From: Halostella salina | GTDB lineage: Archaea > Halobacteriota > Halobacteria > Halobacteriales > Natronoarchaeaceae | Assembly: GCF_003675855.1 (NCBI RefSeq) | Contig: NZ_RCIH01000002.1 | Span: 319,654 to 383,653, forward strand | Direction: 5' to 3' | Length of the DNA stretch: 64,000 nucleotides | Part shown: positions 48,981-64,000 of the stretch, in pieces | Layout of the letters: each line of letters opens with the position of its first letter | How positions within the stretch are numbered: the stretch's first letter is position 1 | The notes under the pieces: generated by a model | What the model saw: the letters and a program-made list of their open reading frames with translations, nothing else | Told to the model about the DNA's origin: nothing | Database searches by the model: none | Translations under genes and position numbers: made by a program

Positions 48981-49048
48981 GAGCAACCACTCCCGGGCCC
49001 GAGACCCCTTTCGAAGCGCTTTTCGCCGGCGGCGCAGTTGGCCGAGGT

Positions 49049-49297
49049 ATGGACCGACAGACGCTGACCGAGATCGCCGTCTCCGTGGGGGCGGTCGGAA
49101 CGATGATCGGCGCGATGATGTTCGTCGGGTCGAGTTACACGACGAACAACGAGCTAACGACCGAGGGCGGACAGGTGCTCGTCGGCGTCATCTTCCTGTT
49201 CATCCTGCTGATGTTCGCCGTCGGCTTCGCCCTCTCGAAGGCCGACTTCGAGTCCGACGCCGAACAGGCCAGCCACGACGGCGCGAACGGCAGTTAA
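49049..49297 (+). CDS. Small two-helix membrane protein
   Basis: 82 residues: MDRQTLTEIAVSVGAVGTMI then a membrane segment (about 8-27), a polar loop (SSYTTNNELTTEGGQ), a second helix (about 43-62, LVGVIFLFILLMFAVGFAL) and an acidic C terminus. It follows the iron-transporter-like gene by 68 bases on the same strand and may be cotranscribed. Function unknown. Confidence 0.75.
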   Translation: MDRQTLTEIAVSVGAVGTMIGAMMFVGSSYTTNNELTTEGGQVLVGVIFLFILLMFAVGFALSKADFESDAEQASHDGANGS

Positions 49298-49317
49298 TCC
49301 CGCCGACTCGCGTCCAG

Positions 49318-50331
49318 CTACTCGCGCCAGTCGACCGTCGCCTCGGCCGCGTCCAGTCGCTTCTCGTAGTACTTCAGGGGGTGGGGGACGGTCTCGCAGA
49401 CCTCGTCCTTGTTCACGCAGAGCCCGTACGCTTCCATCGTCTCACAGGACGGCGGCGGGTACTCCGTCCCCCCGTCGGCCGTCGCGATCCTGTCGGCGCG
49501 GTAGTCGTCGCCGTCGGCACAGAACGCGTCGACCTCCGCGTCGTCCATCCCGATCGCCGTCAGGAACGACGTGAGGGCGAACCGGTCGGGTTCCGGTAGC
49601 TCGCCGTCGCGCTCGCGCTCGACCAGTTGCTGGAGACAGGGCGGGAACAGGTCGGGCACGACCGCGTCGATGTCGCCGGACAGTTCGAGGTCCGCGAGGA
49701 GGTCCTCGACGGCCTCGACCGCGTCCCCCAGTTCGGCAGCGATGGTCTCGGGGACGGCGAGCGGCAGACCGGCGCTCACGCGACGCTCGACGGCCTGCCG
49801 GAGCAGCAGGTGGAGCTCCTCCTCGTCGACCGGGACGCCGCCGTCCGCGAGCGACCGGCTCGCCAGCCGCCAGCGGTCGCCCGGCAGGTCGCCGGCGAGC
49901 GTCAGGTAGTCGCCGACGGGCACGCGGAACCCGTCGCCGTCGGTCGTCGCGTCGAGGTCGAACTCCCGGAGCAGGCGCTCGCGGCTCATCCGCTCGCCGC
50001 TGGCGCTGCGCAGTTCGTCGGCGTCGAAGTCCGCGGTGAACCGCCGGTGGGCGGTGACCGCCTCGGCGCGGGCGTACTTCCGGGTCAACACGGGGTCGTC
50101 GACGAGCGAGACGAGGACGCGCGCGACCGGGTAGGAGAGCAGTTCGACCCGGGGCTGGCGGGCCGGGTCGCCGGTGGTGTCCCCCGACAGCGCCGCCTCG
50201 ACGCGGCCGACGGCGCGCTCGACTGCAGCGGGGTCGTCCCGCGCCACGAGGTCGGCCAGGTCGACGGCCGCCTCGTCGACCGCCTCCCGGGCGGCGTCGA
50301 GGAACGGGTACCGGGCGTGGAACCGTTGCAT
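49318..50331 (-). CDS. priL: DNA primase large subunit
   Basis: 337 residues. Partner of the catalytic PriS in the archaeal/eukaryotic primase that makes primers for replication. The N-terminal helical domain (1-180) is followed by the iron-sulfur C-terminal domain with cysteines in LFPPCLQQLVER, DAFCADGD, PPSCETMEAYGLCVNKDEVC and the final VPHPLKYYEKRL. Four or more cysteines are available for the [4Fe-4S] cluster. PCNA is encoded 2 kb downstream. Confidence 0.94.
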   Translation of the reverse strand: MQRFHARYPFLDAAREAVDEAAVDLADLVARDDPAAVERAVGRVEAALSGDTTGDPARQPRVELLSYPVARVLVSLVDDPVLTRKYARAEAVTAHRRFTADFDADELRSASGERMSRERLLREFDLDATTDGDGFRVPVGDYLTLAGDLPGDRWRLASRSLADGGVPVDEEELHLLLRQAVERRVSAGLPLAVPETIAAELGDAVEAVEDLLADLELSGDIDAVVPDLFPPCLQQLVERERDGELPEPDRFALTSFLTAIGMDDAEVDAFCADGDDYRADRIATADGGTEYPPPSCETMEAYGLCVNKDEVCETVPHPLKYYEKRLDAAEATVDWRE

Positions 50332-50451
50332 CGCCGATTCGTTACGTCCGACACCCGATAAATAACTCGGTCGACCGGTCAGCCGCGTGGCCGGTTTCGA
50401 CGGCGCTCGTCACCGACCGGACGAACTAAGTCCGCTCGCTCGCCTACCAGC

Positions 50452-51093
50452 GTGCGAGTGCCGTACTTCGACTACCCCTGTCCCGACTGCCGGACCACCA
50501 ACAACCTCCACGAGACGGACTGCCGGTTCGCGGGCACGTCGTGGGCGACGGTCGAGAAGGCGTACGTCGACATCGTCGCGGCGCTGTCGGCCGAGCCGCG
50601 GCCGGAGGCCGCGCTCCGCGACGCCGTCGACGGCGACTGGGGCGCACTCCACGCGGCGGCGCTGTCGCTGCTGCGCGACGAGTACCGCGTCTTCGAGGTG
50701 GGCAGCGGCGACGAGGCCGACGAGGCCGCCAACCGCGTCCGGGGGTCGGACGGCGACCTGGCGCTGACAAGCCCCGAACAGCGCCGCGAGCACCTGAGCC
50801 AGCCCGACCGCGAACCGCTGCGGACCATCTACCGCGAGGGGTCGGTGCCGGGCTGTCACGACAACGCCGTCTTCGCGATGATCGCCTACTACGAGATGGT
50901 CGGCTTCTCCTGGCGCGAGACCAAGGAGAAGGTGATCGAGTGGCTCCACGACAGCGGGACGTGGGCACGCGGCGGGTTCGAGGAGGCCTCGCCCGAGGAG
51001 CTCGTCGCGAGCAAGCGCCACGTGTACGAGGAGGGGTACGGCTGGAAGGAGAAGGCGACCGCCGCGAAGCGCGTCATCGACCGCCGGGGGTAG
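50452..51093 (+). CDS. Conserved haloarchaeal protein with N-terminal zinc motif
   Basis: 213 residues from a GTG start (MRVPYFDYPCPDCRTTNN); a second GTG two codons later is possible. YPCPDCRTTNNLHETDCRF gives C-x2-C ... H-x3-C, a probable small zinc site. The centre contains GCHDNAVFAMIAYYEMVGFS, a conserved-looking helix, and the C terminus WKEKATAAKRVIDRRG. Divergent from priL and often seen near replication genes in my memory of haloarchaeal genomes; no function is known. Confidence 0.72.
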   Translation: MRVPYFDYPCPDCRTTNNLHETDCRFAGTSWATVEKAYVDIVAALSAEPRPEAALRDAVDGDWGALHAAALSLLRDEYRVFEVGSGDEADEAANRVRGSDGDLALTSPEQRREHLSQPDREPLRTIYREGSVPGCHDNAVFAMIAYYEMVGFSWRETKEKVIEWLHDSGTWARGGFEEASPEELVASKRHVYEEGYGWKEKATAAKRVIDRRG

Positions 51094-51126
51094 CCCCGGC
51101 GAGCCGCGACGCACGTCCGCGCTCCC

Positions 51127-52083
51127 TCAGCGCCAGTCCGCGTCCGGGTCGACGACGTGCTCCGGGTCGTCGCCCGAACGCACCGCCTGCACATCCGCGA
51201 TCAGCGTCTCGTTCAGCGTCGCCAGCGACCGCTCCGAGTAGAACCCCGCGTGCGGCGTGACGAGGACGTTCTCTAGGTCGAACAGCGGCGACCCGTCGGG
51301 CGGCTCCTCGGCGAGCACGTCCAGCCCCGCGGCGGCCAGTTCGCCGCCCGTCAGCGCGTCGTACAGGGCGTCCTCGTCGATGATCCCGCCGCGACCGACG
51401 TTGACCAGCACCGCGTCGTCGGCCATCGCCTCGAACGCCTCGGCGTCGAACATGCCGCGCGTCTCGTCGGTCAGCGGCGCGTGGACCGAGACGGCGTCGG
51501 CCTCGTCCAGTAGCGTCCCGAAGTCGACGCGGCGCGCGCCGTACTCGGTGACCGTTTCCTCGTCGACGTAGGGGTCGTACACCGCAACGTCGAGGGCCAG
51601 CCCCTCCGCGAGTTCGACCAGCCGGCGTGCGATCGCGCCGAAGGAGACGACGCCGAGCGTCGACCCGACGACCGGGGAGAGCGGCCGCCCGGCTTCCCAG
51701 GCCCAGTCGCCGTCCCGTACCTCCGCGTCGTACTGCCGCAGGCGGCGCTTGCAGGCGAGCAGGAGCGACAGCGCGTGGGTCGCCACCTCGTCGGTGGAGT
51801 AGTCGGGCACGTTCGTCACCGTCACGCCGTGCTCGGCGGCCGCCGCCACGTCCACGTTGTCGACGCCCGTCCCGGCGCGTGCGACCAGTTCGAGCGACTC
51901 GCACGCCTCGAACACCGCGGCGGTGACCGGCGTGTTCACGTCGACCACCAGCGCGTCGGCGGTTTCGGCGGCCGCCGAGACGGCCGCCTCGGTGCTCGTG
52001 TCCGCGACGGTCACGTCGGCGTCTAACCGCTCGCGGAACAGTTCGTCGTCGACGAACGGGGTGTCGCTGAGGACGACTTCCAT
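51127..52083 (-). CDS. D-2-hydroxyacid dehydrogenase (CtBP/SerA-like)
   Basis: 318 residues. The family pattern is complete: ARAGTGVDNVDVAAAAEHGV, the NAD-binding loop STLGVVSFGAIARRL (Ser replaces the middle Gly of GxGxxG), the active-site Arg in VLVNVGRGGIID, Glu in LDVLAEEPPD and His in VTPHAGFYSE. It reduces a 2-oxoacid with NADH or the reverse; the substrate could be phosphoglycerate-like, lactate-like or other. No ACT domain follows, which argues against a classical SerA. Confidence 0.88.
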   Translation of the reverse strand: MEVVLSDTPFVDDELFRERLDADVTVADTSTEAAVSAAAETADALVVDVNTPVTAAVFEACESLELVARAGTGVDNVDVAAAAEHGVTVTNVPDYSTDEVATHALSLLLACKRRLRQYDAEVRDGDWAWEAGRPLSPVVGSTLGVVSFGAIARRLVELAEGLALDVAVYDPYVDEETVTEYGARRVDFGTLLDEADAVSVHAPLTDETRGMFDAEAFEAMADDAVLVNVGRGGIIDEDALYDALTGGELAAAGLDVLAEEPPDGSPLFDLENVLVTPHAGFYSERSLATLNETLIADVQAVRSGDDPEHVVDPDADWR

Positions 52084-52157
52084 TGACGGGTCGACGTTGG
52101 CGCGGCGGGCTAAAAGGGATTAGACACCGTTCCCGCGGCACGGGAACGATCGATCGG

Positions 52158-52337
52158 TCAGCCGCCCGTTCGACGCTTCCCCCACTCGTGGCCGAGCACG
52201 GCGACCGCGGCGAACAGCCCGGCGAGCAGTCCGGCGTGGACGGCCGACCCGACGATGCCGGCACCGACCGCGCCGCCGACGCCGCCAGCGACGCCGGCGT
52301 ACGCGGCACCGCGGTCGGTCTCGGACCCGAACGGCAT
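52158..52337 (-). CDS. 59-residue glycine-rich membrane protein
   Basis: Begins MPFGSETDRGAAYAGVAGGV. Two glycine/alanine-rich hydrophobic stretches (about 12-32 and 34-49) and a basic C terminus (HEWGKRRTGG) follow. Its ATG is 7 bases after the PCNA stop on the same strand, so it is probably in the pcnA transcript. Function unknown. Confidence 0.6.
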   Translation of the reverse strand: MPFGSETDRGAAYAGVAGGVGGAVGAGIVGSAVHAGLLAGLFAAVAVLGHEWGKRRTGG

Positions 52338-52343
52338 CCGTCC

Positions 52344-53087
52344 TCAGTCGCTCTGGATCCGGGGCGCGAGCATGAACGTGACCTGCCCGTTGCCCTCTGC
52401 GATGTCGAAGTGGATCTTGACTGGGAACTCCTCGCCCAGTTCGAGGGTCACCTCGGCGTCCTTGTCGATCGCCTTGTTCATGTCCTTCAGGTAGTCGAGG
52501 CTAAAGAGGGAGTAGGCGGGGCCTGCCTGCAGGTCGATGAGGTCGTCGCGGTCGAGTTCGAGATGGACGTCGTCCGTGTCGCCCTCCGCGTCGACGTAGA
52601 ACTGCTCGTCGGTCTCGTCGACGCCCAGCGCGATGTGGTCCGACACCATGTCGGCGGCGGTGACCGCGCGGTCGATGTCCGCGCCCTCGATGACGATCTC
52701 CGAGGCCAGGTCCAGATCGGGGATGTCCGGCTCCTGGCGGATCGAGTCGGGGTCGATGAGCGCGAGCGTGTACTCCAGCCCGTCGATCTGGATGTGGAGC
52801 TTGCGGGTCTCCTCGTCGAGTTCGAGCTCGACGAGCTGGCCGGAGTCGGCCATGCCGACGATGTCCTCCAGCCGCGAGAGGTTGACGCCGATGAGGCCGC
52901 CGTCCGCTTCGTAGGACTCGAACGCGTCGGCCGACAGCGAGAGGTCGACCATGCCGACGTTGGCGGGGTCGACCGCCCGGATCTCGATCCCGTCCTCGTT
53001 CAGGTGGATCTTGCACTCGTCGACCAACACGCTCACGGAGTCGAGCGCGGTTCCGAGCGTCTCCGCGCTCACTATCGCCTTGAACAT
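52344..53087 (-). CDS. pcn: DNA polymerase sliding clamp (PCNA)
   Basis: 247 residues starting [20 protein letters not shown]. The two-domain clamp fold shows [20 protein letters not shown], the interdomain region ([20 protein letters not shown]) and the C-terminal APRIQSD tail. It forms a ring around DNA and tethers polymerase, Hef, Hjc and other PIP-box proteins. A reverse-strand TATA lies at 53111-53122. The gene is divergent from the truncated rlmE, with starts about 150 bases apart. Confidence 0.97.
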
Positions 53088-53110
53088 TCTTGCGTCGAGA
53101 TTTGGCGGCC

Positions 53111-53122
53111 CCACATAAAAAA
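53111..53122 (-). promoter_or_regulatory. TATA box of pcn
   Basis: TTTTTTATGTGG on the reverse strand, 24-35 bases upstream of the ATG at 53087; a leaderless or near-leaderless start is expected. Confidence 0.6.
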
Positions 53123-53239
53123 CCGCGCGTTCCGCGTGCGCGCGGGAACTGCGACGGGCGGTCGCGGGACCGTTCCCCATCCACGGCCGCGTCCCGCTAC
53201 CCCTATCTGTATCGGACGGGTAGGGTCCGCTAACTGACC

Positions 53240-53269
53240 ATGGGACGCAAGGACCACTACTACAACTAA
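53240..53269 (+). pseudogene. rlmE: First nine codons of rlmE (FtsJ-type rRNA methyltransferase), truncated
   Basis: ATG at 53240 opens MGRKDHYYN and then stops (TAA at 53267). This is the typical N terminus of haloarchaeal RlmE, which methylates the 2'-O of a uridine in 23S rRNA, and in haloarchaea I recall rlmE lying divergent from pcn. After codon nine the similarity ends abruptly and AT-richer accessory DNA starts. The rest of rlmE is not within the window. This looks like the left junction of an integrated element. Confidence 0.6.
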
Positions 53270-53407
53270 TCCGCTTAGACTGTTATGCCCTGTAACTCGA
53301 CGCACTCCGATACAACCCCTTTGTTTCGTGTAGAATCTACTCCTGCCGACAGGAAATAGGAACAAAATCGCCGGGGGTTAGAGCCGCCCAATGCCAACTA
53401 CCCTCCC

Positions 53408-53758
53408 CTATTCGAGAAGCTCAAAGTCCTCGTACTGGACGTTGAAGTCGTTGCCCGCATCGGCACACGTCACGTGCCACGTCGTCTCGTAGTACTCATC
53501 CACCACCCCCTCAACAACGACAGTCACCGCGGAGTTGTCGCCGCTGAACTCGTCCACGTCAACCGTGATAGTCCGATAACCCGACTCGACGTCACCCCGA
53601 TCAGCCACGACTTCACCCGTCACCTCAAACACCTCATCATCCAACCCGCCAACCAGTTCCTCGTCAATCACATCGCGCTTCTCCCCGTCACTAACTCGTA
53701 GATTCAGCCGAACTTCGGCACCTTCCGAGATGTCGGTGAGGAAGGGATCGATGACCAT
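53408..53758 (-). CDS. Hypothetical acidic island protein
   Basis: 116 residues from the ATG at 53758 (MVIDPFLTDISEGAEVRLNL). Composition is acidic and rich in Val, giving a predicted all-beta fold (TITVDVDEFSGDNSAVTVVV, EYYETTWHVTCADAG). No signal or known motif is visible. A 14-base element shared with the next gene's upstream region lies 46 bases before its start. Unknown function. Confidence 0.6.
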   Translation of the reverse strand: MVIDPFLTDISEGAEVRLNLRVSDGEKRDVIDEELVGGLDDEVFEVTGEVVADRGDVESGYRTITVDVDEFSGDNSAVTVVVEGVVDEYYETTWHVTCADAGNDFNVQYEDFELLE

Positions 53759-53803
53759 ACCAATGCAATCACACGATGACAGGAAAAGAAGAACGATGGG
53801 GAC

Positions 53804-54532
53804 GCGCAGCCACCCCACAGGTGGCCGATGAGCTGTGACGTGAGACCGGTCGGGAGTTAAGCCCGCTCCACCCAGTCCACGTCGCCCTGCAACTGATACT
53901 CCGTGCCAACGGGATCAGCGGTCATATACGCCGGATGATACACCCCGGACTTCTTCATGTGCCGCTGATTCACGCCGAGGTACTCGAATCCCTCCACGTC
54001 AATGCTGATCGTGACCATCTCCACATCTGCGTTGCCCATCTCATCCACCGACTCAACCTCACCCCTGAACTCACGCCGTAAATCAACATCCACGTCAACA
54101 GCGTCCTCATCACCGTGGATGTTCCCCACCACAGACTTCACGTCCACCTCGTCACCAACCTCAACACGACTCATCACCTCAAACACATCCTCGTGACCCA
54201 CCCCCGTGCTGATGATGGAAACATCCGATACATCGCCCATCAGCTCGCCGTCCGCCGGCGCGTGACCGCGCCACAACTTGTGGGCGTCGAAACCGCTGCG
54301 AAACTCCATCACATCATCAACGACGGGCGACTCAAGCACCATTACTCCGTCATCTGGCATCACGTCACGAACGCTCGCCTGTAACTCTCTGCCATCTTCC
54401 AAAGTAATGTCCGCGACATCTCCACCGTCGGCACTGCCCAGTTCAGAGACGCTCACCGACATACACGGTGGATTATGGAGCCTTCCCAGTTAAAAGTGAA
54501 TCAACCGACAACGAGGGAGCGCAGCCACCCCA
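53804..54532 (-). repeat. Shared 14-base upstream element, two copies
   Basis: GCGCAGCCACCCCA occurs at 53804-53817 and 54519-54532, each time 46-57 bases upstream of the start of the reverse-strand gene that follows it (starts 53758 and 54462). On the coding strand it reads TGGGGTGGCTGCGC, and weaker similarity continues towards the genes. Candidate common promoter or regulator site. Confidence 0.5.
53857..54462 (-). CDS. Hypothetical acidic, beta-rich island protein
   Basis: 201 residues. Alternating valine/aspartate-rich strands (VEVGDEVDVKSVVGNIHGDE, DVEMVTISIDVEGFEYLG) suggest an all-beta domain, with the odd segment NQRHMKKSGVYHPAYMTADP near the C terminus. It is in the same orientation as the genes on either side. 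No recognisable family; a virion or plasmid-encoded protein is possible but not supported by motif. Confidence 0.6.
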   Translation of the reverse strand: MSVSVSELGSADGGDVADITLEDGRELQASVRDVMPDDGVMVLESPVVDDVMEFRSGFDAHKLWRGHAPADGELMGDVSDVSIISTGVGHEDVFEVMSRVEVGDEVDVKSVVGNIHGDEDAVDVDVDLRREFRGEVESVDEMGNADVEMVTISIDVEGFEYLGVNQRHMKKSGVYHPAYMTADPVGTEYQLQGDVDWVERA

Positions 54533-54561
54533 AAGCGCCGCCGAAGCGGCCCGGAGCGAAT

Positions 54562-54741
54562 CTACGCGGTCACGGGACTGGCACGCTTCTCCTCGTCCTC
54601 TACAGGTACCCACTCGTCCACCTCGACAACCCCCCGTTCCACGTACATCACCTTGCAGATGCAGCTGAGAACAACCTCACCGTCCACCTCACCGCGGACG
54701 ACGCGCCCGTGACAGTCGGTACACCGCATATCTGTCTCCAT
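54562..54741 (-). CDS. 59-residue zinc-ribbon-like protein
   Basis: Begins METDMRCTDCHGRVVRGEVD and continues VVLSCICKVMYVERG. C-x2-C ... C-x-C gives four cysteines for one zinc ion. The tail is acidic (VDEWVPVEDEEKRASPVTA). Such tiny zinc proteins are abundant in haloarchaeal mobile elements. Function unknown. Confidence 0.6.
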   Translation of the reverse strand: METDMRCTDCHGRVVRGEVDGEVVLSCICKVMYVERGVVEVDEWVPVEDEEKRASPVTA

Positions 54742-54798
54742 CTTACCTAACAGTACGCTGTCAAAACGTTTAAAACAATCGACAGAAGGAGTGGTGAT

Positions 54799-55533
54799 TC
54801 AGTCGAGACTCTTCTCCAACTTCCGAACCATCTCCTCAACCCGCTCCGCATCCTCTCCATCCAGATACGGTATCACACGCTCACCTTTCTCGATCTTATT
54901 CCGAAGCGCAACAGAAGACGCATCAACGAGAATCATCTCCTCAACATCCTCTACGTAGCCGTCAACACTCCACCCGTCACGCCGAATCGGAACGATGTTG
55001 TCGGGAGGATCAATCGGATCGTTCGAGTACCGATCATCAGCCATCGACTTGTACTTCTTTCTCGTCCTGCTATCGAGCGATCCGAACGCTGTCATTGCAC
55101 TATCCCAGAACCCCTTCCGCTCCGATGTCCAGCTTCCACACGTCTCGCCGCTTCGATTGAACACATCCCACCGCTGAACAGCCGCAAGCACGTTCACCTT
55201 GAAGTTCACGCTCTTGCCGCTGAACTCCTCGTACTCGACGTGCTCCGGGGCGATGGCGGGCTGATCGTACTTCTCCATTACCTTCTCCAACATCGACTTA
55301 CGAAGAACGAAGTCGTCCTCGTAGTCGTGAGGATCATACAGCTCTTCCTCGTAGCCGTCATCCTCGCCGTCATTACCGATGAGCGACAGTTCACGGCGCT
55401 GGAACTCGTTCTCGATGATATCCTCGACGGTGGCCTTGATTTTGCCGTGTCCCTCGTGTGGACTGTCCTCGACGATCTTCCTCAGCTTGGCTTCAGTCTT
55501 GTCGTCAAGGTCTGCACGCAGACTGTAAGTCAC
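54799..55533 (-). CDS. Hypothetical protein with possible ribbon-helix-helix N terminus
   Basis: 244 residues from a GTG start. Residues 1-48 (YSLRADLDDKTEAKLRKIVE, KIKATVEDIIENEFQRREL) resemble an RHH DNA-binding unit. The rest is acidic, with a central segment VLAAVQRWDVFNRSGETCGS and the C-terminal helix AERVEEMVRKLEKSLD. A TATA-like AGTATAAG lies about 30 bases upstream (about 55562-55569), directly overlapped by the first TTTGTTCAAA palindrome, suggesting autoregulation. Function inferred only. Confidence 0.6.
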   Translation of the reverse strand: MTYSLRADLDDKTEAKLRKIVEDSPHEGHGKIKATVEDIIENEFQRRELSLIGNDGEDDGYEEELYDPHDYEDDFVLRKSMLEKVMEKYDQPAIAPEHVEYEEFSGKSVNFKVNVLAAVQRWDVFNRSGETCGSWTSERKGFWDSAMTAFGSLDSRTRKKYKSMADDRYSNDPIDPPDNIVPIRRDGWSVDGYVEDVEEMILVDASSVALRNKIEKGERVIPYLDGEDAERVEEMVRKLEKSLD

Positions 55534-56485
55534 TCCACCCGATGTTTTACTACTCTGACACTTATACTTTGTTCAAAACAAAATGTATGTGTGCGGTGTG
55601 GATTGAATCCCCGGAGACTATTCCGACCATCTTGTTCAAAAACAAAAGAAAAGAACGCGTCTGGTAATACCTTGTCTGACACTTAGCCTATGTCGCTCGC
55701 ACACGTTGCCGCTGGATTGACGGTTGCTTCGCGTTGTCGGAGTCAGACCGTTGCATCGGACGCACATCTGAAGCGACGTTTTCGACGTGCCTGCTCTGAC
55801 GGGCGTTGCTCGTGGTGGCCAGAGAGGCTCGGTGGGGACGGCAGCCTAGGCCAACCATCTCATCCTAAACTTTCCCATAATACACACTTTAAATTACTTT
55901 TACTAGAAAGAGTATAGTAGGTAGGTAAGGTTGGTGTTGGTTTGTTCAAAGGGATAACATAATGCTCACGCCCCCCGACTCATCTTCACGACGACTGACT
56001 CAGACTCCCACCCCCACTCCTCACGTTACACACACATACTTTGTTTTGAACAAAGTTTGGAGGACGTGAGGAACAGCCAACGACTCTCTCCACGGCTGTC
56101 GCTCTGGACTGCTGGCCGTCGCACTCGTGTCCGTCGTTTCTGGCGCTTCCGCCATTCCGCACATTTCTCTCGTCCCGCACGTTTGAAACGTCGATCTCGT
56201 CTCCAACGTCAACTCGCGGCCGACGCTAACGCGCACAGGCACGTGCAGACGCGCATAGGCGCACCTGTTCGACTCTTTCCACTCCGCGCCCTATCCGTCG
56301 CGTCGGAGATTGATTCGAAATTCGGCCTTCTATGACCCTCTCTGAGAGTCGCGTGCTTGTAGTGATGTTCACGAGGGAACAGTATCACTTCGGATCGGGG
56401 CCCACGGCAATTTGATATTCCGAACTTTCTAATACCGGAAGGTGGTCAGACGACGGGGTTTTCCGCGGGACGGCCGTACACACGT
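55534..56485. promoter_or_regulatory. Non-coding region with palindromic repeats
   Basis: About 950 bases without a convincing gene between divergent genes. Four copies of a TTTGTTCAAA-type palindrome occur at 55567-55583 (CTTTGTTCAAAACAAAA), 55631-55648 (CTTGTTCAAAAACAAAAG), 55941-55950 (TTTGTTCAAA) and 56039-56055 (CTTTGTTTTGAACAAAG, inverted). CTGACACTTA is directly repeated near 55554 and 55677. An AT-rich tract spans about 55863-55930. Short open frames here lack coding character. It could be an operator cluster, a partition site or an origin. Confidence 0.6.
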
Positions 56486-56491
56486 GTGCAG

Positions 56492-56902
56492 ATGAGCAGT
56501 GTAGGCAGGAGGGAGCGTCCGTCGCTCCCCGACTGCATCTCAGCGGTAGAGCAGGATCAGATGGTAGTCGTCGAAACCGATGCGGGAATCGAGTTTCAGG
56601 TGTACGTGACCGTGATGGATTGGAATCCCGATCCGTTCGCGTTCCGCGATGGAGTGAGGGAGTGGCGGTTGGATGTTGGCATCGAGGTGTACGACGAGGA
56701 ATGTGATCTGGGAGCGGTTGAGCACCCTGTTGGTGACATCAGGACGACGTGGGATCACCGTGATGGATGGGGTGATGCGGTGGCTCGTGTTGCCGAGTTG
56801 CCTGATGAGTTTGATATCGATGATTTCGAGGATTACGGTGAGTATGAGAGCGAGATGGTTTACGAGGAAGTCGGTGAAGTCGTTGACGTGCGTCGGAGTT
56901 GA
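56492..56902 (+). CDS. Hypothetical acidic island protein
   Basis: 136 residues from the ATG at 56492; a GTG two codons upstream is possible. The middle (QMVVVETDAGIEFQVYVTVM, EWRLDVGIEVYDEECDLGAV) looks beta-rich and the C terminus is very acidic (DEFDIDDFEDYGEYESEMVY). It resembles in style the proteins encoded at 53408 and 53857. Unknown function. Confidence 0.55.
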   Translation: MSSVGRRERPSLPDCISAVEQDQMVVVETDAGIEFQVYVTVMDWNPDPFAFRDGVREWRLDVGIEVYDEECDLGAVEHPVGDIRTTWDHRDGWGDAVARVAELPDEFDIDDFEDYGEYESEMVYEEVGEVVDVRRS

Positions 56903-57101
56903 AGCCAGCGCGGTTTTCCTTTTTATTTTTCACTTCGGTGGAGAGTGCGAGTCGCCGCGCTCAGACGCTTTTCCCGGACGAGTTCAATAGGCATACTGAC
57001 TAAAGAAACCGGATTATCAACTACCGATAGGATACCAGTCCTTCGCCGAAGCAAATGAACGGGCTAGATCTGTGTTTGAGCGGATGGTTGCGGAGTGAGA
57101 C

Positions 57102-57659
57102 CTAGATCCCCAGCTCGGTGATTCCGGCGGCGATGAACGCGGCACCGTAGTTTTTCCCGTCGATGTGTCGGCGGACGATGGCACCTTCCGGCAGACAGTC
57201 GTGGATGGTGAACTCGTCGATGCTGTACCTTCCCTTCCCATTCAGCGCCCTGACGCCTCCTTCGAGGATCACTGGAGTGAGCGTGGTTTCGCGCCCTTGC
57301 TCGTCACTCGGCCCTGTGGGTGCTTCGAGGTCGCTGAAGTCCTTGTAGTAGTCCGGGACGGCGATCTTGCCCCGGGAGTGTCGCTCGATGAAGTTGTCGA
57401 CGCGGGTCGGCGGTGACGTCACCAGTCCGATGGTGCGCGGCTTGTCGGTGGCCTCGGTCTCGCCACCGGTGTTCATTCTGACTGTCAGCGCCGGCGTGAG
57501 ATTGTCCAGCGTTGTCGGTTCTGACCAGTCGATGTTGTCGTGGGGCAGTTCATCGCTCCACGCGGTGTGCATATCCGGGTGCTGTTCCGCGGTTTTGATA
57601 GGTTCTGTGCTCCCCTCGGTCGTTGGTAAGTCCTTCACGGGGTGCTGACCCCTTTCCAT
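57102..57659 (-). CDS. Hypothetical island protein
   Basis: 185 residues from the ATG at 57659. The frame stays open 46 codons further upstream, but that part is low-complexity and looks non-coding. Residues 20-55 are polar; the C-terminal half (RTIGLVTSPPTRVDNFIERH, KIAVPDYYKDFSDLEAP, GKGRYSIDEFTIHDCLPEGA) looks folded. No family recognised. It is divergent from the winged-helix gene. Confidence 0.5.
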   Translation of the reverse strand: MERGQHPVKDLPTTEGSTEPIKTAEQHPDMHTAWSDELPHDNIDWSEPTTLDNLTPALTVRMNTGGETEATDKPRTIGLVTSPPTRVDNFIERHSRGKIAVPDYYKDFSDLEAPTGPSDEQGRETTLTPVILEGGVRALNGKGRYSIDEFTIHDCLPEGAIVRRHIDGKNYGAAFIAAGITELGI

Positions 57660-57885
57660 CACGGGGCCACTCGGCCCGAGACTTTCACTTCGATAACGGG
57701 GTGTCTCCCCCGATTGCGAACCCGCTGTGATCCCACCCGGGGGATGTCCTATTGGGCTTCTAGTCGATTCCGCCGCTGGCCGCCAACCCCCCGGCAATAA
57801 TCCCGTATATTTGTGGCCATAGCCGGCAGTTGCCGAGTGTTCTGCCGAGTGATTTATTCACCGTCGTGAGTGAGTTATTAATGTA

Positions 57886-58656
57886 GTGCGTGCTACATAT
57901 TCTGAGCCAGAGAGGTGCGATGATCTCAGTCAGATGGTGCTGTCTGCGCTGCACAAGCGGGGTCGAGCCAGCACCTCGCAGTTGAGGAGGATGACCGGCG
58001 GCGACAGCAGTAGCATCAGGTATCGCATCGACGAGTACCTGTCCCCCGCGGGACTCGTCCGCGAGGTTGACCGCAAGGAACACGCCGGCAACGACGTGCG
58101 CGTGTTTGAGTTGACGAACGAGGGGCAGATGTACGTCAGCGATATGTGGAGTGACCTGACCCACTACGCACGCCGCCACGAGGTGCTTGACGCCGCCGAG
58201 GAGACGCACGACCGTCTTGATCTGCTTCACGACCGCATCGATGATTTCGAGCGACGACTGGACGAGATGGACGAGGACATCGAGGGCATAGCGGACGAGC
58301 TGTTCAGCGAGTGGCAGCAGTTCCGGGGCGGGATGGAGGGCAACTTCTCACAGTTGCGCGAGCAGGTCGCCTCGATGGAGGAACAGTTGGAAGCCGAGCA
58401 ACGCGAGCGCGAGAAGCTCGAAGAGCGCGTGGACGAGTTGGAGCAGCTGGTGGGGAGCGAGACCGATATGGCCACGCGCCGCGACGAGACGCTCGTTGAG
58501 GCTGTCGTTCGGAACCGCCGGCTGGTTGAGGAGGCGTGGGCACGCGTGATGGAGTTTGAGATAGAGACCGGTGTAGCGAACTACCTCAGCGTGGGGAAGG
58601 CGAAGGAACTCGTGTCGGGGTACGGGCCGCGAGAGCTGCGGGACTGGCGGCGGTGA
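57886..58656 (+). CDS. Winged-helix protein with long coiled coil
   Basis: 256 residues from a GTG start; an ATG 16 codons in is the alternative. Residues 12-85 form a winged helix (SQMVLSALHKRGRASTSQLR, SSSIRYRIDEYLSPAGLVRE). Residues 100-190 are a heptad-rich coiled coil (LHDRIDDFERRLDEMDEDIE, LREQVASMEEQLEAEQRERE). The C terminus has RNRRLVEEAWARVMEFEIET. The layout is common in haloarchaeal proviruses and plasmids. Probably a repressor or partition-type protein. GTGATTTATTCAC and TCACCGTCGTGA dyads lie just upstream (57849-57870). Confidence 0.7.
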   Translation: MRATYSEPERCDDLSQMVLSALHKRGRASTSQLRRMTGGDSSSIRYRIDEYLSPAGLVREVDRKEHAGNDVRVFELTNEGQMYVSDMWSDLTHYARRHEVLDAAEETHDRLDLLHDRIDDFERRLDEMDEDIEGIADELFSEWQQFRGGMEGNFSQLREQVASMEEQLEAEQREREKLEERVDELEQLVGSETDMATRRDETLVEAVVRNRRLVEEAWARVMEFEIETGVANYLSVGKAKELVSGYGPRELRDWRR

Positions 58657-58665
58657 CGTGGTGGT

Positions 58666-59523
58666 TCAGTTGATTTCTTGAAACAGTGTGATAGCTTCCG
58701 CCTTGAAGCGGTTGTACAGTCTTCTTTCGGCCCATTCATCCGCCTCGTGGATACGGTAGTCGTTGCGCCCCGCACGGACGATCACGGCGCTGTTGATGTC
58801 GAGCGAGTCGAGTTGATGCAAGGCAACTGTCTGCATTTTCGAGGCGTTAGTAACTCTTTTTGAGGTCTTGATCTCAACGAGAATCACTTCCTCGGTGTCA
58901 GGATGTAGGAGCAGCAGATCGATTCGACCGGCATAGCCGGCGTCGCCGTGTTTGTGTTCCTCGTTGAGGAAGTTGGTTGTCTCGGCGTGTTCGCACCTGA
59001 TGACCTGCATTTTCGCGGCCGCGTACGTTTCGGCATCGATCAGGTCGCAAAGCGCGTCCTTGACCCGGGACGTGATGTCGCGAGCATCCGACTGGGCTTG
59101 CTTGGCGAGATCGTCGAAGATGAACCGGTCGGGGTAGTAGTCCTTGAGCGTGGAGACCACCTCGGCCTCTGTGCCGGTGTTGGGGTCGAGAAGTTGGACT
59201 TTGATGTCGTCTCGCTTGTGGGTGGATCGGTAGTCGTCTTCCAGACTCTCCTGCAGGTTCAAGTGTGCGGTGCGCCCGACCAGTCCCGCGTATTCCCGGA
59301 CGCGTTCCGGGTTCTCGACGCTCCGATCGTAGTTTTCCAGCGGGAACAGAGGTTCGTGTAGTTCTCCCTCCATGGGGTGATTGAAAGGCACTCTCTGCAC
59401 GATCTCGTTGACGCTGGGATAGTATGTCTCGCCCCGCTTGAAGCACCATACACCGTCTTTCTGGACTGCCCGGAGGTCGGAATCCGGAAAGTTCACCTCG
59501 CGGTGGAACTCGACGCTGGCCAT
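58666..59523 (-). CDS. PD-(D/E)XK nuclease-like protein
   Basis: 285 residues. The catalytic pattern is in the C-terminal half: a conserved GYAGRIDLLLLHPDTEEVIL supplies the Asp, then LVEIKTSKRVTNASKMQT supplies Glu-x-Lys, with the helix Gln in VALHQLDSL, as in Cas4/RecB-type nucleases. No cysteine cluster for a [4Fe-4S] site is visible. It sits convergent with the coiled-coil winged-helix gene, 9 bases apart. Expected to cut DNA; in an island a defence or replication role is plausible. Confidence 0.72.
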   Translation of the reverse strand: MASVEFHREVNFPDSDLRAVQKDGVWCFKRGETYYPSVNEIVQRVPFNHPMEGELHEPLFPLENYDRSVENPERVREYAGLVGRTAHLNLQESLEDDYRSTHKRDDIKVQLLDPNTGTEAEVVSTLKDYYPDRFIFDDLAKQAQSDARDITSRVKDALCDLIDAETYAAAKMQVIRCEHAETTNFLNEEHKHGDAGYAGRIDLLLLHPDTEEVILVEIKTSKRVTNASKMQTVALHQLDSLDINSAVIVRAGRNDYRIHEADEWAERRLYNRFKAEAITLFQEIN

Positions 59524-59592
59524 ATCCCGTGGAACGCCCCGGGAAAATATATCATTTTCCTGAACAGAATTCGCCCCCCCACACTTGGTACT

Positions 59593-59796
59593 TCAGGTAT
59601 CCACGGTTTGGAGATGACCATCACGGGTCTCGATCTCCACGGTTTGCTCGCCCCGGGTGTCGATTTTGACCGTGGTTTCACTCTCCCGGGCGTGGATTCG
59701 GATGTTGAGGTCGTTCGCGCCGAGTGAAAGGAGATCGAGGTCATCGTCCGAGTACCGTCCGCCGTTGGTAATCCGATCGAGCGGGTCGAGGAACAT
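59593..59796 (-). CDS. 67-residue hypothetical protein
   Basis: MFLDPLDRITNGGRYSDDDL and then LDLLSLGANDLNIRIHARES followed by a beta-rich ending (TTVKIDTRGEQTVEIETRDG). Repeated strand-like segments suggest a small beta protein. Same strand as the nuclease gene, 70 bases upstream of its start. Unknown function. Confidence 0.5.
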   Translation of the reverse strand: MFLDPLDRITNGGRYSDDDLDLLSLGANDLNIRIHARESETTVKIDTRGEQTVEIETRDGHLQTVDT

Positions 59797-59963
59797 TCTG
59801 TCATCGAGTGCGCTGTTCCTGAGTTAAATGGATGTGCCCCGGGCAGCATCCGGGGCAGAAGCAGAGACCAAGTCAAAGGCTGGGGCCGATACCGTCGAGA
59901 TGAAAACCTCATCCAATAGTATTGTATTTCTCGTTTGTATCACTCGAGTAGGCGCGTGCAGAT

Positions 59964-60581
59964 TCACGGGTTGGACTCTGCTGACTCGGCTTCTTGGCAG
60001 GGACAGACGGGGTTTTCGGAGAGAAAATCAAGGACGTTGTGTCTTCGATCGCACTCTCCGCATCGAACGTGAAAGGAGATGCTGGCCCTTGGATCGTCGA
60101 TGCTGGCCGCTCCATTACGAACAAGTCGTTCCAACGTTCCTTCCACGACGTTGGTAAATCTGGTCTGCATCTTGCTGATCTGCTTCCGGTCGTGGCTGAT
60201 GTCCGGTGAGTAGTCCCGGCTGGTGTCGATGTCGAGACAGTCCTTGAGGTGGCTCAGCAGAGTCCTGTAGCTGATGAAATCGGTGTTCACGGTGTCAACA
60301 TCCACGCCCTGTTCACGAAGTTCCGTTTCGGCGCGGCGTCTCTCCGAGTCCAGCACATCATCGTCGGTGAGCAAGCGATAGTAGTTCTCCGCGTCACCAT
60401 CCAGCACCGTCATCCCTGCTTTCTCCATCGCTCGCTCCAGCACGAGTTGGTTGAACCAGTCTTCGAGGGTTCTGACGCCCTTATCTTCTTCGTTGTACTT
60501 GTGGAGGAGTCGTTCGTCGAGATTGTACATCGAGTAATCGTCCCGGACGCGCCCCACCTTGCAGCACGAGGTTTTGGTCAT
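59964..60581 (-). CDS. Rod-determining factor RdfA homologue
   Basis: 205 residues from the ATG at 60581 (MTKTSCCKVGRVRDDYSMYN). Family landmarks are the CCKVGR start, RTLEDWFNQLVLERAMEKAG, NYYRLLTDDDVLDSERRRAE, LREQGVDVDTVNTDFISYRT and HLKDCLDIDTS, plus a C-terminal zinc-binding part (VRCGECDRRHNVLDFL, VCPCQEAE). RdfA is needed for rod-shaped cells in Haloferax volcanii; many divergent copies sit on plasmids and proviruses, where their role is unclear. Presumed DNA-binding from the LLSHLKDCL helix region. Confidence 0.75.
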   Translation of the reverse strand: MTKTSCCKVGRVRDDYSMYNLDERLLHKYNEEDKGVRTLEDWFNQLVLERAMEKAGMTVLDGDAENYYRLLTDDDVLDSERRRAETELREQGVDVDTVNTDFISYRTLLSHLKDCLDIDTSRDYSPDISHDRKQISKMQTRFTNVVEGTLERLVRNGAASIDDPRASISFHVRCGECDRRHNVLDFLSENPVCPCQEAESAESNP

Positions 60582-60619
60582 CGTCTTGGGCCCGGTTGCG
60601 CAGCCCTGTCCACTTGAAG

Positions 60620-60843
60620 GCTGCATCGGATTGCTGCGTCTTCTTCAAGTTCTGGCTGAACTCACAGGTATCTCATCCCATTTACGACGAGCAGGGCGAG
60701 TTGTACGGGAGTATGGAGACTCGAGGAGCAGGCTCGTCACGCTGTACGATAACAAGTTCGACAGTCTCGGTACGCGGTAGATCAGCCAGTTCCTCTACTC
60801 GTCGGAGGTGGTTGAATTGAATGAGATCGAGCAGAAGGTGTAG
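60620..60843 (+). pseudogene. Remnant of an unidentified haloarchaeal gene, two frameshifts and a stop
   Basis: Adjacent fragments in different frames read as one protein: LRLLQVLAELTGIS, then HPIYDEQGELYGSMETRG, then SRLVTLYDNKFDSLGTR, an in-frame TAG at 60778, and ISQFLYSSEVVELNEIEQKV before TAG at 60841-60843. The segments have normal protein character but no single frame is open. I do not recognise the family with certainty. Confidence 0.5.
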
Positions 60844-60860
60844 CAGCTGCGGTTTTACAT

Positions 60861-60868
60861 TTATAAGT
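60861..60868 (+). promoter_or_regulatory. TATA box of the small gene at 60894
   Basis: TTATAAGT lies about 25-33 bases upstream of GTG 60888 and ATG 60894, compatible with a leaderless transcript. Confidence 0.5.
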
Positions 60869-60893
60869 AAACGATGAATAATAGGAAGTGCGG

Positions 60894-61109
60894 ATGGTCG
60901 AGTACGTCAGAGCGTTGCATCCGAATCCAGAACAGGATGGTATGGCAGACGACATCCCCGACGAGAAGGTGCCGGGTTGCGGCGACACGGTGCTGTTGGA
61001 GTATGACGAGGCTCCGCCGGTTGAGGAAGGCGACGTGTTCCGCGACTCATGTCCGTCCTGTAAGCGTCACGACGCCCGGTTGGAAGTTGTCGAGATTCGA
61101 GCCGAGTAA
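60894..61109 (+). CDS. 71-residue protein with cysteine motif
   Basis: From the ATG at 60894: MVEYVRALHPNPEQDGMADD, PGCGDTVLLEYDEAPPVEEG, DSCPSCKRHDARLEVVEI. One Cys near residue 30 and C-x2-C near 53-56 could bind zinc with the nearby His. A GTG at 60888 would add two residues. It is convergent with the HEPN-like gene, 6 bases apart. Unknown function. Confidence 0.55.
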   Translation: MVEYVRALHPNPEQDGMADDIPDEKVPGCGDTVLLEYDEAPPVEEGDVFRDSCPSCKRHDARLEVVEIRAE

Positions 61110-61115
61110 CCGCGT

Positions 61116-62012
61116 TCATTCTCCCCCCATCTCGGGGTACGATGTGACCTCGCGATACTCATCAACCCGTTCCTCGTACTCCTCTTCCGCGACTTCGAGC
61201 ATCGTATCGACGAGGTTCTCGGCAGCCTCGTAGTGACGGTTGACACGATCCATAACGTCGATGTGGTCTCCATCGACTGGCTCGAAGGATGCCTCGGGAT
61301 CGCCGGGTCTGAAGTCATCCAAGTCATCTATCGGGACGGTTATCGTTATCTCGGTGTCGTCGGTGGTGGGGCCGAGGAAGTGGACGAGTGAGGACGGAAG
61401 GGTGAGGTGGTGTTGGCCATAGGTTCGCAGGGCCTTGATGACCTCGTTTTCTCTCTTGAACTTGTTCTTGGCGTCCTCGATGGAGCCATCCGATGGGAGG
61501 TGCGGTTCGACGTTCTTCCCGAGTATTTCCTCGAAGCTGTATGCGGCGGCGGTGTAGTTGTGGACGTCCGCTCTCACTCGGCGGTGGAAGTCGCCGTCCT
61601 GATCGATGCCCTCGTCCTCGATTGTGTCGTGTGCTTCCTGCAGGCGTTGCTGGTTGTGGTGGAGGATGGCGATGGCGTTGGTGAGTTCGGCTGCGGCGTC
61701 GGTGAGCTTACGGACGGGGTGTGACTCCTTTTGCAGGGGCTCCTTTCGGGATGTCTTGGATATGTCTGCCGGTCTTTCAGGTCTGTCTGTGCCGCGCTCG
61801 TTCGCGTCGAATAGGAGAGCCAAGTCCCTGTTCTCGACTCGCACGTCGTACTCGATGTTGCAGTTGTCCCCGGGGCAGTCGTGGCGGGCAGTGTAGACCT
61901 GTTGAGACTTGCGCTCCAGTTCGTTGGCTTGGATGTCAAGCTCGGTGTTGCAGGAGAAACATTCGACGTCATCGAGGAGTGTGTTTATCAGACGTTTCAG
62001 CTCGTCGTCCAT
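61116..62012 (-). CDS. HEPN-like protein with N-terminal zinc motif
   Basis: 298 residues. Residues 15-55 hold DVECFSCNTELDIQ and ARHDCPGDNCNIEY, four cysteines for zinc. The helical middle includes VRADVHNYTAAAYSFEEILG and then EVIKALRTYGQHHLTLPSSL, where R-x4-H matches the catalytic motif of HEPN RNases. A C-terminal coiled segment ends the chain (RVNRHYEAAENLVDTMLEVA). HEPN proteins act as RNA-cleaving toxins or defence effectors; the assignment rests on this short motif and on the fold pattern and is tentative. Confidence 0.55.
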   Translation of the reverse strand: MDDELKRLINTLLDDVECFSCNTELDIQANELERKSQQVYTARHDCPGDNCNIEYDVRVENRDLALLFDANERGTDRPERPADISKTSRKEPLQKESHPVRKLTDAAAELTNAIAILHHNQQRLQEAHDTIEDEGIDQDGDFHRRVRADVHNYTAAAYSFEEILGKNVEPHLPSDGSIEDAKNKFKRENEVIKALRTYGQHHLTLPSSLVHFLGPTTDDTEITITVPIDDLDDFRPGDPEASFEPVDGDHIDVMDRVNRHYEAAENLVDTMLEVAEEEYEERVDEYREVTSYPEMGGE

Positions 62013-62039
62013 ATTGGCTGAACCGGCGGTATGACCAAG

Positions 62040-62547
62040 TTAATTGGGCTGGAGAAGTTGATGCATACAGAGAACGGTGAAGACATCCTCTGGAGCGATT
62101 CGAGTGTGACATCTTTGGCGTGCCACGCCAGCCGCGTCACGGCGTCGATGCCGTAGATGGCGCCCTCGTCGTTGAGGAGAGTTGGCCACTTGTCGAGACG
62201 CTTCGCAACTCCAGTCTTGCGGATGAGATGGAGGTATTGATCGTCCATCTTGTGCTCGTGATTGCCGACCATGCCGTAGAAAGGATGTCGGCGGTATTGA
62301 GTGGCTGGAGAATATCGATACAGCGATTCTAGTCTGGAAGGCGAGGATAGCGAGCTTCGAAGCTGTCATCCACACAGATGACCTCTTCGACATCTTTGTC
62401 GATTGCGTACTCGATAGCCTGCTCGAAGGTGTTAGCGAAGTCCTCTCGGCTGTATAGCTCCCATATTGGAATTTCCCGGGGGGTATCGCTCACGTGGAGG
62501 AGCCGTGTAGTCCTGTGAGATCGTATGTGATGGTGGCTGACAGACAT
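62040..62547 (-). pseudogene. Broken Mre11-like metallophosphoesterase
   Basis: Fragments rebuild the first part of an Mre11/SbcD-type phosphoesterase: RLLHVSDTP ... DFANTFEQAIEYAIDKDVEE, VICVDDSFEARYPRLPD and a TAG. A frameshifted PFYGMVGNHEHKMDDQYLHL, TLLNDEGAIYGIDAVTRLAW and, after another shift, EDVFTVLCMHQLLQP follow. The family's DxH is DTP here and GDLF is DDSF, so metal ligands are lost. With one stop, two frameshifts and a truncated 3' end it cannot be functional. Confidence 0.72.
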
Positions 62548-62612
62548 ATCTGGGTCAACCGACGTGAAAGAGGAACAGATTCATACCATGAGTTGGAGAG
62601 CAGAAATCTTCA

Positions 62613-62625
62613 CCATATCAAATAA
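62613..62625 (+). promoter_or_regulatory. TATA-like promoter of the BREX-like operon
   Basis: CATATCAAATAAG lies 27-39 bases upstream of the ATG at 62652 and is the only good TATA match before the brxA-like gene. Confidence 0.45.
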
Positions 62626-62651
62626 GTGTCCCCGACGGGTCGTATCGTTGT

Positions 62652-63494
62652 ATGAGCACTCGCGGAGATGGGGGTACGAATCTGCTCCCCTCCCTTAATT
62701 CGTCCTTTTCGCATGACGATGTCTCGATGGATCTCACGATGTGCGGCCTCCTCGTGGAGAAAGCTGAGGAGATGGCGAAGCTCTACGCTAAACACAGGGA
62801 TTGGACAACGGTTGAGGATCGTTGGTTCGAGGAGAGACGTGATGGTCGGAGCACTCGTGGGAGTTCGCGCAAGATTTATCGGGTATTGAGTTCCCGTTTC
62901 AAAACCGCAGACAGGTCACTGCCAGCGATTTCCCGACTGCCGTCGATCTTCGATCTCTGTGGAGGGAAGCGGGACAAGGCACAGGTACTGTATTTTTATC
63001 TCATCGAGGATGACCCGCTCGTCAAATTCGTCGTTCACGAGTACGTCCGCCGACTGCAGGAACGCGGTGTGGGGGGACTTGATTTTGAACAGGATACCGT
63101 CGAGTCGCTTCTCAACGAGTTCCACTATTCGGACGGGGAGCAGTTCGACTACGCAGACTCGACCACCGCTCGCTGGGGCGAAGGACTTCGAAGCGTGATG
63201 CGAGAGATCGGTGTTATCGAAACGCAGCAAACGTTACAAGGCCAAACTCCGAACATCAGCGAGATTCCGCTCCTCGTCGCGGCGGGCTACTCTTGGGAGA
63301 ATGCTGGAGACGAGTGGCTTTCCCAACCTCGCGGTTGGCTCTATCTCTTCCAGCCGGAGCAGTACTGGGAATCGCTGGCTGAACGTGTCGGCAACCATCC
63401 CGGCTGGGAGGCAAGTGGCATCCACGGAGAGTTGCGCCTTGAGCCGGTTGACGACACGTACGGTTGGGCCGAACCGATGGAGGAGGATATATGA
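62652..63494 (+). CDS. BrxA-like (DUF1819-type) BREX protein
   Basis: 280 residues. The order of features resembles BrxA: MCGLLVEKAEEMAKLYAKHR with DWTTVEDRWFEERR, SSRKIYRVLSSRF, then KAQVLYFYLIEDDPLVKFVV, a central STTARWGEGLRSVMREIGVI, and the end LAERVGNHPGWEASGIHGEL. BrxA is a small DNA-binding helical protein of BREX anti-phage systems. The stop overlaps the ATG of the ATPase gene (ATGA). Recognition is by pattern, supported by the neighbour. Confidence 0.68.
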   Translation: MSTRGDGGTNLLPSLNSSFSHDDVSMDLTMCGLLVEKAEEMAKLYAKHRDWTTVEDRWFEERRDGRSTRGSSRKIYRVLSSRFKTADRSLPAISRLPSIFDLCGGKRDKAQVLYFYLIEDDPLVKFVVHEYVRRLQERGVGGLDFEQDTVESLLNEFHYSDGEQFDYADSTTARWGEGLRSVMREIGVIETQQTLQGQTPNISEIPLLVAAGYSWENAGDEWLSQPRGWLYLFQPEQYWESLAERVGNHPGWEASGIHGELRLEPVDDTYGWAEPMEEDI

Positions 63495-64000
63495 CGAACG
63501 AATCGTGGTTCACCGCCGATGTCGGCGCCGACTTTGAGGAGTCCGTGCGGATCGACCGGGAAGACGATGGCCGCGACCATCGGCTGGACTCCATTGACAC
63601 CTACCATGTGACCGACGAGGCCGAGGACTTCATGTCCGACTTCCTCGCACGGTTGCTCGGTCGTTCGGAGGACATGCGGTCGGGAGCAAACTACTGGCTC
63701 TACGGATACTACGGTAGCGGGAAGAGTCACCTCCTCAGCGTGCTTCGCGGCCTGATGGACAGCGAGTGGCTTCGCCGGCGAGACGACATCTGGGGACAAC
63801 TGACTGACGGGCGCGATCTGTCGACGCTGCAGACGACGTGGGACTCCATTCACGACGAGTACGAGGTCATCCCGATCTCGGTGAATCTCCTGAAGCACCA
63901 AGGGCAGAAGGAACTCAGCTTCAGTGAAATCGTCCTGCAGGCCGCCCACACGTCGGAACGCCTCACCGGCGTCGAAGGCGGGCTCTCCCCCCAGCTTGAC
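63491..64000 (+). CDS. BrxC/PglY-like P-loop ATPase of a BREX system (3' end outside window)
   Basis: Open frame from the ATG at 63491 to the window end, 170 residues visible of a protein that in the family exceeds 1,000. The N-terminal region reaches LYGYYGSGKSHLLSVLRGLM, whose GYYGSGKS (residues 72-79) is the Walker A motif in the form typical of BrxC/PglY (G-x-x-G-S-G-K-S-H). ISVNLLKHQGQKELSFSEIV follows. BrxC is the large ATPase of BREX phage defence and acts with PglX methyltransferase and PglZ. The direct 4-base overlap with the brxA-like gene leaves no room for brxB between them. Confidence 0.75.
   Translation, partial: MTNESWFTADVGADFEESVRIDREDDGRDHRLDSIDTYHVTDEAEDFMSDFLARLLGRSEDMRSGANYWLYGYYGSGKSHLLSVLRGLMDSEWLRRRDDIWGQLTDGRDLSTLQTTWDSIHDEYEVIPISVNLLKHQGQKELSFSEIVLQAAHTSERLTGVEGGLSPQLD

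Follow-up and report, generated by a model that had tools for sequence, protein, structure and literature searches.

Our analysis of a 64,000-nucleotide stretch of DNA (the window, G000:C2:319654-383653, read from one draft assembly of Halostella salina, G000, in 17 contigs) indicates that an integrative element of 100 kb, with antiviral defence genes among its cargo, has, very probably, inserted site-specifically into codons 7 to 9 of rlmE and supplied the severed gene with a new start and a promoter-like cassette. The window contains the left junction and the first part of the element, and contig C2 (559 kb) carries both junctions. The features concerned, in window coordinates unless the contig is named, are the following.

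52344..53087, minus strand: pcn (PCNA, 247 aa), the left chromosomal neighbour
53088..53239, plus strand: upstream region of the host rlmE, now ahead of a nine-codon stub (read from the sequence)
53240..53266, plus strand: opening nine codons of rlmE (MGRKDHYYN) on the left side of the break; all 27 nt agree with the uninterrupted gene in G004
53258..53266, plus strand: attachment core of attL, TACTACAAC, whose second copy starts at G000:C2:472944
53267..53269, plus strand: TAA stop codon, from island DNA
53285..53300, no strand assigned: 16-bp inverted-repeat arm, ATGCCCTGTAACTCGA, paired with an arm that precedes the core of the right junction
53267..64000, no strand assigned: left 10.7 kb of the 100-kb island, which continues to G000:C2:472944
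62652..63494, plus strand: brxA, the first BREX gene (PADLOC BrxA, E=4.6e-145)
63491..64000, plus strand: 5' part of brxC, whose whole product of 1237 aa extends past the window (PADLOC BrxC, E=0 over 1-1237)
G000:C2:472932-473696: rlmE at the right junction (254 aa), beginning MTDEYYNKAKQEGYRTRAAYK

A gap of 152 bp separates the stub, encoded by 53240-53269 (ATGGGACGCAAGGACCACTACTACAACTAA) and closed by the TAA, from the start of pcn, which is divergent and is 88-100% identical in the nine genomes of family f1 searched. A sequence-only reading had taken it for the N terminus of RlmE in its usual place beside pcn, and the DNA beyond it for AT-richer accessory DNA at the left junction of an integrated island. 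These claims hold: the identity to the same-genus G004 is complete, the remainder of rlmE, a copy of the core and a tyrosine recombinase gene lie at the far end, and the G+C content of the island is 57.7%, while the right flank has 68.9% and window positions 46001-53266 have 70.6%. Coincidental similarity over nine codons, which that reading had named as a possible refutation, is ruled out by the 27 matching nucleotides together with the precise joined site described below. By eye, the upstream region of the host gene resembles the native upstream of G161, which belongs to another family.

On the same contig, the remainder of rlmE follows 100,033 bp after the stub when measured from core to core, and there begins MTDEYYNKAKQ. 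The frame is open and without signs of decay (FtsJ, E=1.9e-51; TRAM, E=3.4e-12), and it contains the sole strong FtsJ-family match of the genome (C2:472971-473507, E=1.5e-51); six other matches to this family are weak (E 1.3e-5 to 8.1e-4). The suggestion that rlmE might have been lost is thus excluded by an intact gene at the right end of the island, and the concern that a complete copy might reside elsewhere, with no trace at the island end, is likewise set aside. The expectation that the rest of the gene would be found at the far end with a new promoter was borne out for the remainder and for its new start, the promoter being recognised by motif only. Similarly, a copy of the core and a recombinase gene were both found beyond position 64000, as had been anticipated, but the full GACCACTACTACAAC is not repeated: the right side reads GACGAGTACTACAAC in its place, and TACTACAAC is what the two ends share.

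When the two flanks are joined at the 9-bp core, they match native rlmE at 69/78 positions in G004 and 67/78 in G002, while the unjoined left junction beyond the core matches these two genomes at just 16-17/51 positions and the unjoined right junction before the core at 7-8/18. By this alignment, the joined flanks give back a normal rlmE such as that of the same-genus G004. In G002 and in G004, both flanks also match a single stretch, where about 1 kb separates them; in G002 this interval contains an ORF that by eye is alpha/beta-hydrolase-like, so the arrangement of the native locus is not identical. The proposed comparison with island-free relatives gave a uniform answer, the start of rlmE being uninterrupted in 11/11 relatives chosen for having pcn and rlmE within 5.2 kb of each other. 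It is uninterrupted in the same-genus genomes G001-G004, where no integrase match was found at E<=1e-20. A separate peculiarity of G004 is that its rlmE (G004:C14:25568-26374) gives two separate matches inside a single 321-aa open frame, which suggests an in-frame insertion.

The left junction reads ...AAGGACCAC TACTACAAC TAATCCGCTTAGACTGTT ATGCCCTGTAACTCGA and the right junction TCGAGTTACAGGGCAT CCTTATGACTGACGAG TACTACAAC AAGGCC..., with the shared 9 bp corresponding to rlmE codons 7-9; a longer att repeat was considered and rejected, since TACTACAAC alone is exactly common to both ends. The 16-bp inverted arms stand 18 nt after the core on the left and 16 nt before it on the right. The arm sequence GAGTTACAGGGCAT occurs only at the two island ends in the 106 kb examined, one further copy of TACTACAAC inside the island (C2:394338) has no arm nearby, AARGAYCACTACTACAAC has one occurrence in the genome with up to one mismatch, and CACTACTACAAC has one in the 106 kb. 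In G093, an element inserted at the same site, the left core is TTCTACAAC and the right core TACTACAAC; as they have just CTACAAC in common, strand exchange would be confined to those 7 bp. Arms occur at similar places in G280 (8 nt) and G162 (7 nt), and G017 and G093 yielded none of at least 7 nt. The arms would face each other across the core once the island is circular, in the predicted attP.

The putative enzyme of this reaction is encoded by a 509-aa tyrosine-recombinase gene that is divergent from rlmE and 188 bp from its start. It matches Pfam Phage_integrase above the cut-off (E=1.1e-10 over 179-348) and zinc ribbons below theirs; among PDB sequences, a XerC-like recombinase and XerD can be aligned with its catalytic part. 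Of the tyrosine recombinase motif, R200, H306 and Y343 are present and Lys309 occupies the second Arg of HxxR; this lysine is common to four relatives (61-63% identical), while the sixth aligned sequence, that of G162, has Arg. The gene is whole, which distinguishes it from SSV-type (suicidal) integrases, split by integration. A tRNA target is ruled out, as ARAGORN found no tRNA gene in the window or in the island loci.

Homologues of the integrase at E<=1e-30 are present in 23 of the 391 genomes sampled from the class, its own included. For the 22 others, larger neighbourhoods were available in 16 cases and search loci with flanks of up to 1.5 kb in 6; within the stretches examined, 17 of the 23 genomes (28-51% identity) have no rlmE beside the homologue. 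Matches were scarce among phage records (7/50,697, at most 29.1% identical) and plasmid records (5/72,556, 24-29% identical), and a pattern scan of IMG/VR gave none that was confirmed. A scan of named genomes with the integrase alone found nothing, and with the integrase alignment it returned four loci, among them Halobellus sp. Atlit-31R. Second, distant recombinase-like genes (24-27% identical) lie near the integrase in G280 (L038:1277-1921) and G093 (L041:16208-16831). In G304 (L043, on contig C2), a distant homologue is divergent from, and 480 bp away from, a 1521-aa glutamate synthase-like gene (by eye), which is a possible further 5'-end target.

Both junctions were found in the same rlmE codons in five further genomes (G162, G017, G093, G280 and Halobellus sp. 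Atlit-31R), and the right junction only in G038, on a contig of 68 kb. The rlmE gene is divergent from, and within 2.6 kb of, the integrase homologue in G017, G038, G093 and G162; in G280 the two genes lie in one attL-attR unit, with the integrase about 15 kb inside. The core-to-core spans are 14.9 kb (G162), 30.5 kb (G017), 43.9 kb (G280), 67.4 kb (G093) and 100.0 kb (G000). One genome with an integrase homologue match, G315, has no rlmE that we could find. An in-frame ATG is supplied at the right junction in all seven elements, four to six codons before YYN, giving new N termini that read MTDE, MTDKDM, MTDRDM, MTDRDK or MSGKDE.

What precedes this new start was compared with the upstream regions of native rlmE genes. 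The DNA upstream of the new ATG can be aligned to native rlmE upstreams in G017, G093, G280 and G038, with best scores of 33.0-48.5 that were reached by 0/200 single-base shuffles in each case (shuffle maxima 15-19.5); the score of 48.5 is that of the G017 element against the native upstream of G384. Against the same kind of null, the best score of the G000 cassette (12.0, reached by 76/200 shuffles) is not significant, nor are those of G162 (10.5; 169/200) and Halobellus (11.0; 133/200), where the motif described next is absent too. The end of a box of the form CCTTTCC-N20..23-(G/C)TATGA(A/G)CG lies 73 nt from the core, on its upstream side, both in native G002 and G004 and in the attR of G000, G017, G093 and G038; the spacer is 22 in the G000 attR and 21 in the other three. 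With a looser form the attR of G280 is included, so that this promoter-like box is found in five of the seven elements. As the motif was written after viewing the native and attR groups, its evidence is the background count and the equal distance rather than a blind prediction: in five islands (513 kb, both strands, G038 not included), it matches the attR copies only, three in the strict and four in the loose form, and it is absent from the 64-kb window.

The ATG within the box opens a short frame of 15-23 codons (23 in the G000 island). Among the 26 motif-bearing native upstreams, which are related and not independent (L208 and L209, for example), 25 have its stop no more than 8 nt from the rlmE start, against 11.4 expected, and in 15 of them the stop takes the form ATGA; the other two frames place a stop near the rlmE start in 0/26. 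The same holds in 5/5 motif-bearing attR copies, against 1.6 expected. The null shuffles only the stretch between the two ATGs and keeps the rlmE start; it replaced an earlier one that proved too easy (2.8/26 expected). The 75 native upstreams consist of 11 uninterrupted sites, 6 attL and 58 others (6 of 60 fetched regions were left out where the regular expression missed the rlmE N terminus); 26 have the motif and 49 lack it as searched, and the full leader layout is present in 25/75. The spacing differs from 80 nt in 10/26 leaders, by a multiple of three in 7 of these 10 (binomial P 0.02, relatedness ignored). Amino-acid conservation was not seen in the leader (codon-position entropies 1.40, 1.42 and 1.43), and our argument concerns its frame, start and stop only. 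The distance between pcn and rlmE shows no clear relation to the type of leader. With about 27-28 nt between the centre of the box and the leader ATG, transcription perhaps starts at this ATG and yields a leaderless transcript, and the overlap of stop and start makes it possible that the leader is translationally coupled to rlmE. The search for uORFs in Haloferax volcanii was directed at leaders of 150-250 nt (PMC4983044), so it would not have covered an ORF in a leader as short as this.

We propose that the island recombinase would recombine attP, on a circular form of the island, with the attB core (T/A)CTACAAC, with the inverted arms around the attP core serving as its recognition sites. 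The cassette to the left of the attP core, composed of the promoter-like box, the leader ORF and the overlapping rlmE start, would keep rlmE expressed after insertion, and the host would for this reason tolerate the element. The four elements with an alignable cassette probably took it from a host rlmE; in the G000 island, it appears that the layout alone has been preserved. A bolder reading, which we hold to be less likely than not, is that one lineage of mobile defence islands has its home in haloarchaeal rlmE and brings along the control region of the host gene in copy (box, leader ORF and stop-start overlap), such that integration swaps coupled leaders and repeated integration and loss have spread different leaders across families; the resemblance of the G000 native upstream to that of G161 and the alignment of the G384 upstream with the G017 element would fit this.

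The cargo, judged by family matches, is largely devoted to defence, with a BREX set, a KwaB-like gene, helicases and nucleases. The BREX genes, which we take to be of type 5, are ordered BrxA, BrxC, BrxB, second BrxC, PglX, PglZ and BrxHII according to PADLOC (window 62652 to C2:405201); the order is that of the PADLOC-DB models, and here the cluster is cargo of an integrated element and is interspersed with the KwaB-like gene and a schlafen/AlbA-like gene. The island also encodes a UvrD-like helicase, an AAA plus EVE protein, DUF790 plus an XPB-like helicase (PbeA-like in PADLOC), Mrr and NYN proteins and, below cut-off, two HNH proteins and a ParB-like protein. Inside the island, window 59964-60626 encodes on its minus strand a protein of the RdfA family (E=6.5e-55 to Pfam 'Rod-determining factor A'). 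Among the 41 of about 100 island ORFs that were scanned (called by home-made scoring rather than a trained gene finder), no conjugation or plasmid-replication family was recognised, and the 10 proteins scanned against PHROG gave no structural match of the kind expected of a tailed provirus (capsid, portal, terminase). Eight cargo genes are shared with the G093 island, in inverted order, at 89-96% protein identity, the two genomes belonging to different families (f1 and f5); these blocks occupy 62.7-81.4 kb of the G000 island and 33.4-9.1 kb of the G093 island. Two helicases are 69-80% identical and the integrases 59%, and at the DNA level the eight-gene blocks are 90-94% identical, versus 70% for the integrases. 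The histories of cargo and integrase thus differ, which suggests that the cargo moved more recently than the integrases diverged.

Three other accounts of the locus deserve consideration. The insertion could have inactivated rlmE, leaving a promoterless remnant at the far end in a cell that lives without RlmE. The native upstream region has indeed been severed from the body of the gene, but the 254-aa frame retains its FtsJ and TRAM matches without decay, G000 and six other elements provide an in-frame ATG, and loss of rlmE is rare, the gene being present in 385 of the 391 class genomes at E<=1e-60; we therefore regard inactivation as highly improbable. It is less unlikely, if still doubtful, that the 100-kb block was built by several insertions or exchanges and that only the part close to the integrase belongs to the original element. 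The position of the G280 integrase, some 15 kb from rlmE, would fit such a history, as would the contrast between the eight inverted cargo genes and the integrases of G000 and G093. Nevertheless, both outer junctions have the core with matching inverted arms, and the one inner copy of TACTACAAC stands without the arm, which is found at the two ends only.

The element might also be an immobile fossil, integrated long ago and left with an inactive recombinase, an idea that draws on the lysine in place of the second catalytic arginine (HxxK) and on the lack of recognised conjugation or plasmid-replication families among the 41 ORFs. Against this, the integrase ORF is intact and the lysine, shared by four relatives, looks conserved rather than decayed, while G001-G004 have an uninterrupted rlmE start and no integrase match. 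We consider this reading rather unlikely, slightly more so than a composite origin, and retain site-specific insertion of an integrative element that brings its own 5' cassette as our interpretation of the locus.

With this interpretation, haloarchaeal genetics gains a candidate att core and an integrase lineage. The interpretation also suggests how BREX-bearing defence islands of large size may pass from one haloarchaeal family to another, and draws attention to a recurrent leader ORF ahead of rlmE. We found no report of rlmE as an archaeal integration site and no archaeal protein-gene insertion stated to be at the 5' end, in a literature search that covered few subscription papers, so that this absence is weak evidence.

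Archaeal integration targets are mostly tRNA genes, with some intergenic sites and some protein genes whose targeted end is not stated in the part of the review cited here; virus BJ1, for example, integrates in the HMG-CoA reductase gene (PMC8371274). Of 68 thaumarchaeal elements, 14 lie in 3'-distal parts of protein genes (PMC6563490). These archaeal elements share with the present island short att sites and a protein gene as target, but the thaumarchaeal insertions are 3'-distal and that in rlmE is 5'. For pTN3-like elements, the target is the 5' half of tRNA genes (PMC8371274); they resemble the island in being archaeal, in their 5' target and in that the gene is then expressed from element DNA, as we infer for rlmE, and differ in that no tRNA is involved here. 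The closest parallels are bacterial. SXT/R391 ICEs are of about 100 kb (PMC2654960) and sit in the 5' end of prfC, for which the supply of a promoter and N terminus is cited too (PMC8409611); they are thus similar to the island in size and in their choice of the 5' end of a translation-related gene. They are nonetheless conjugative, whereas no conjugation family was seen among the ORFs scanned here, and a copy of a host leader ORF goes unmentioned in the part of PMC8409611 cited. IMEVchUSA3 in dusA supplies a promoter and N terminus, as established with a lacZ fusion in E. coli (PMC8409611), and the dusA integrase family has been described (PMC4482086). Like the rlmE island, dusA islands and IMEs place an integrase beside the 5' end of a gene for RNA modification and supply new 5' coding sequence, although the dusA promoter was shown and that of rlmE is a promoter-like box, and the new N terminus compared for dusA is of 35 residues versus four to six codons before YYN here. 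While membership of either family is not claimed, it is well supported that the island works like the SXT and dusA elements, and it would give archaea an integrative element whose target is the 5' end of a housekeeping gene for a protein, which the insertion also repairs, with prfC and dusA as its bacterial precedents.
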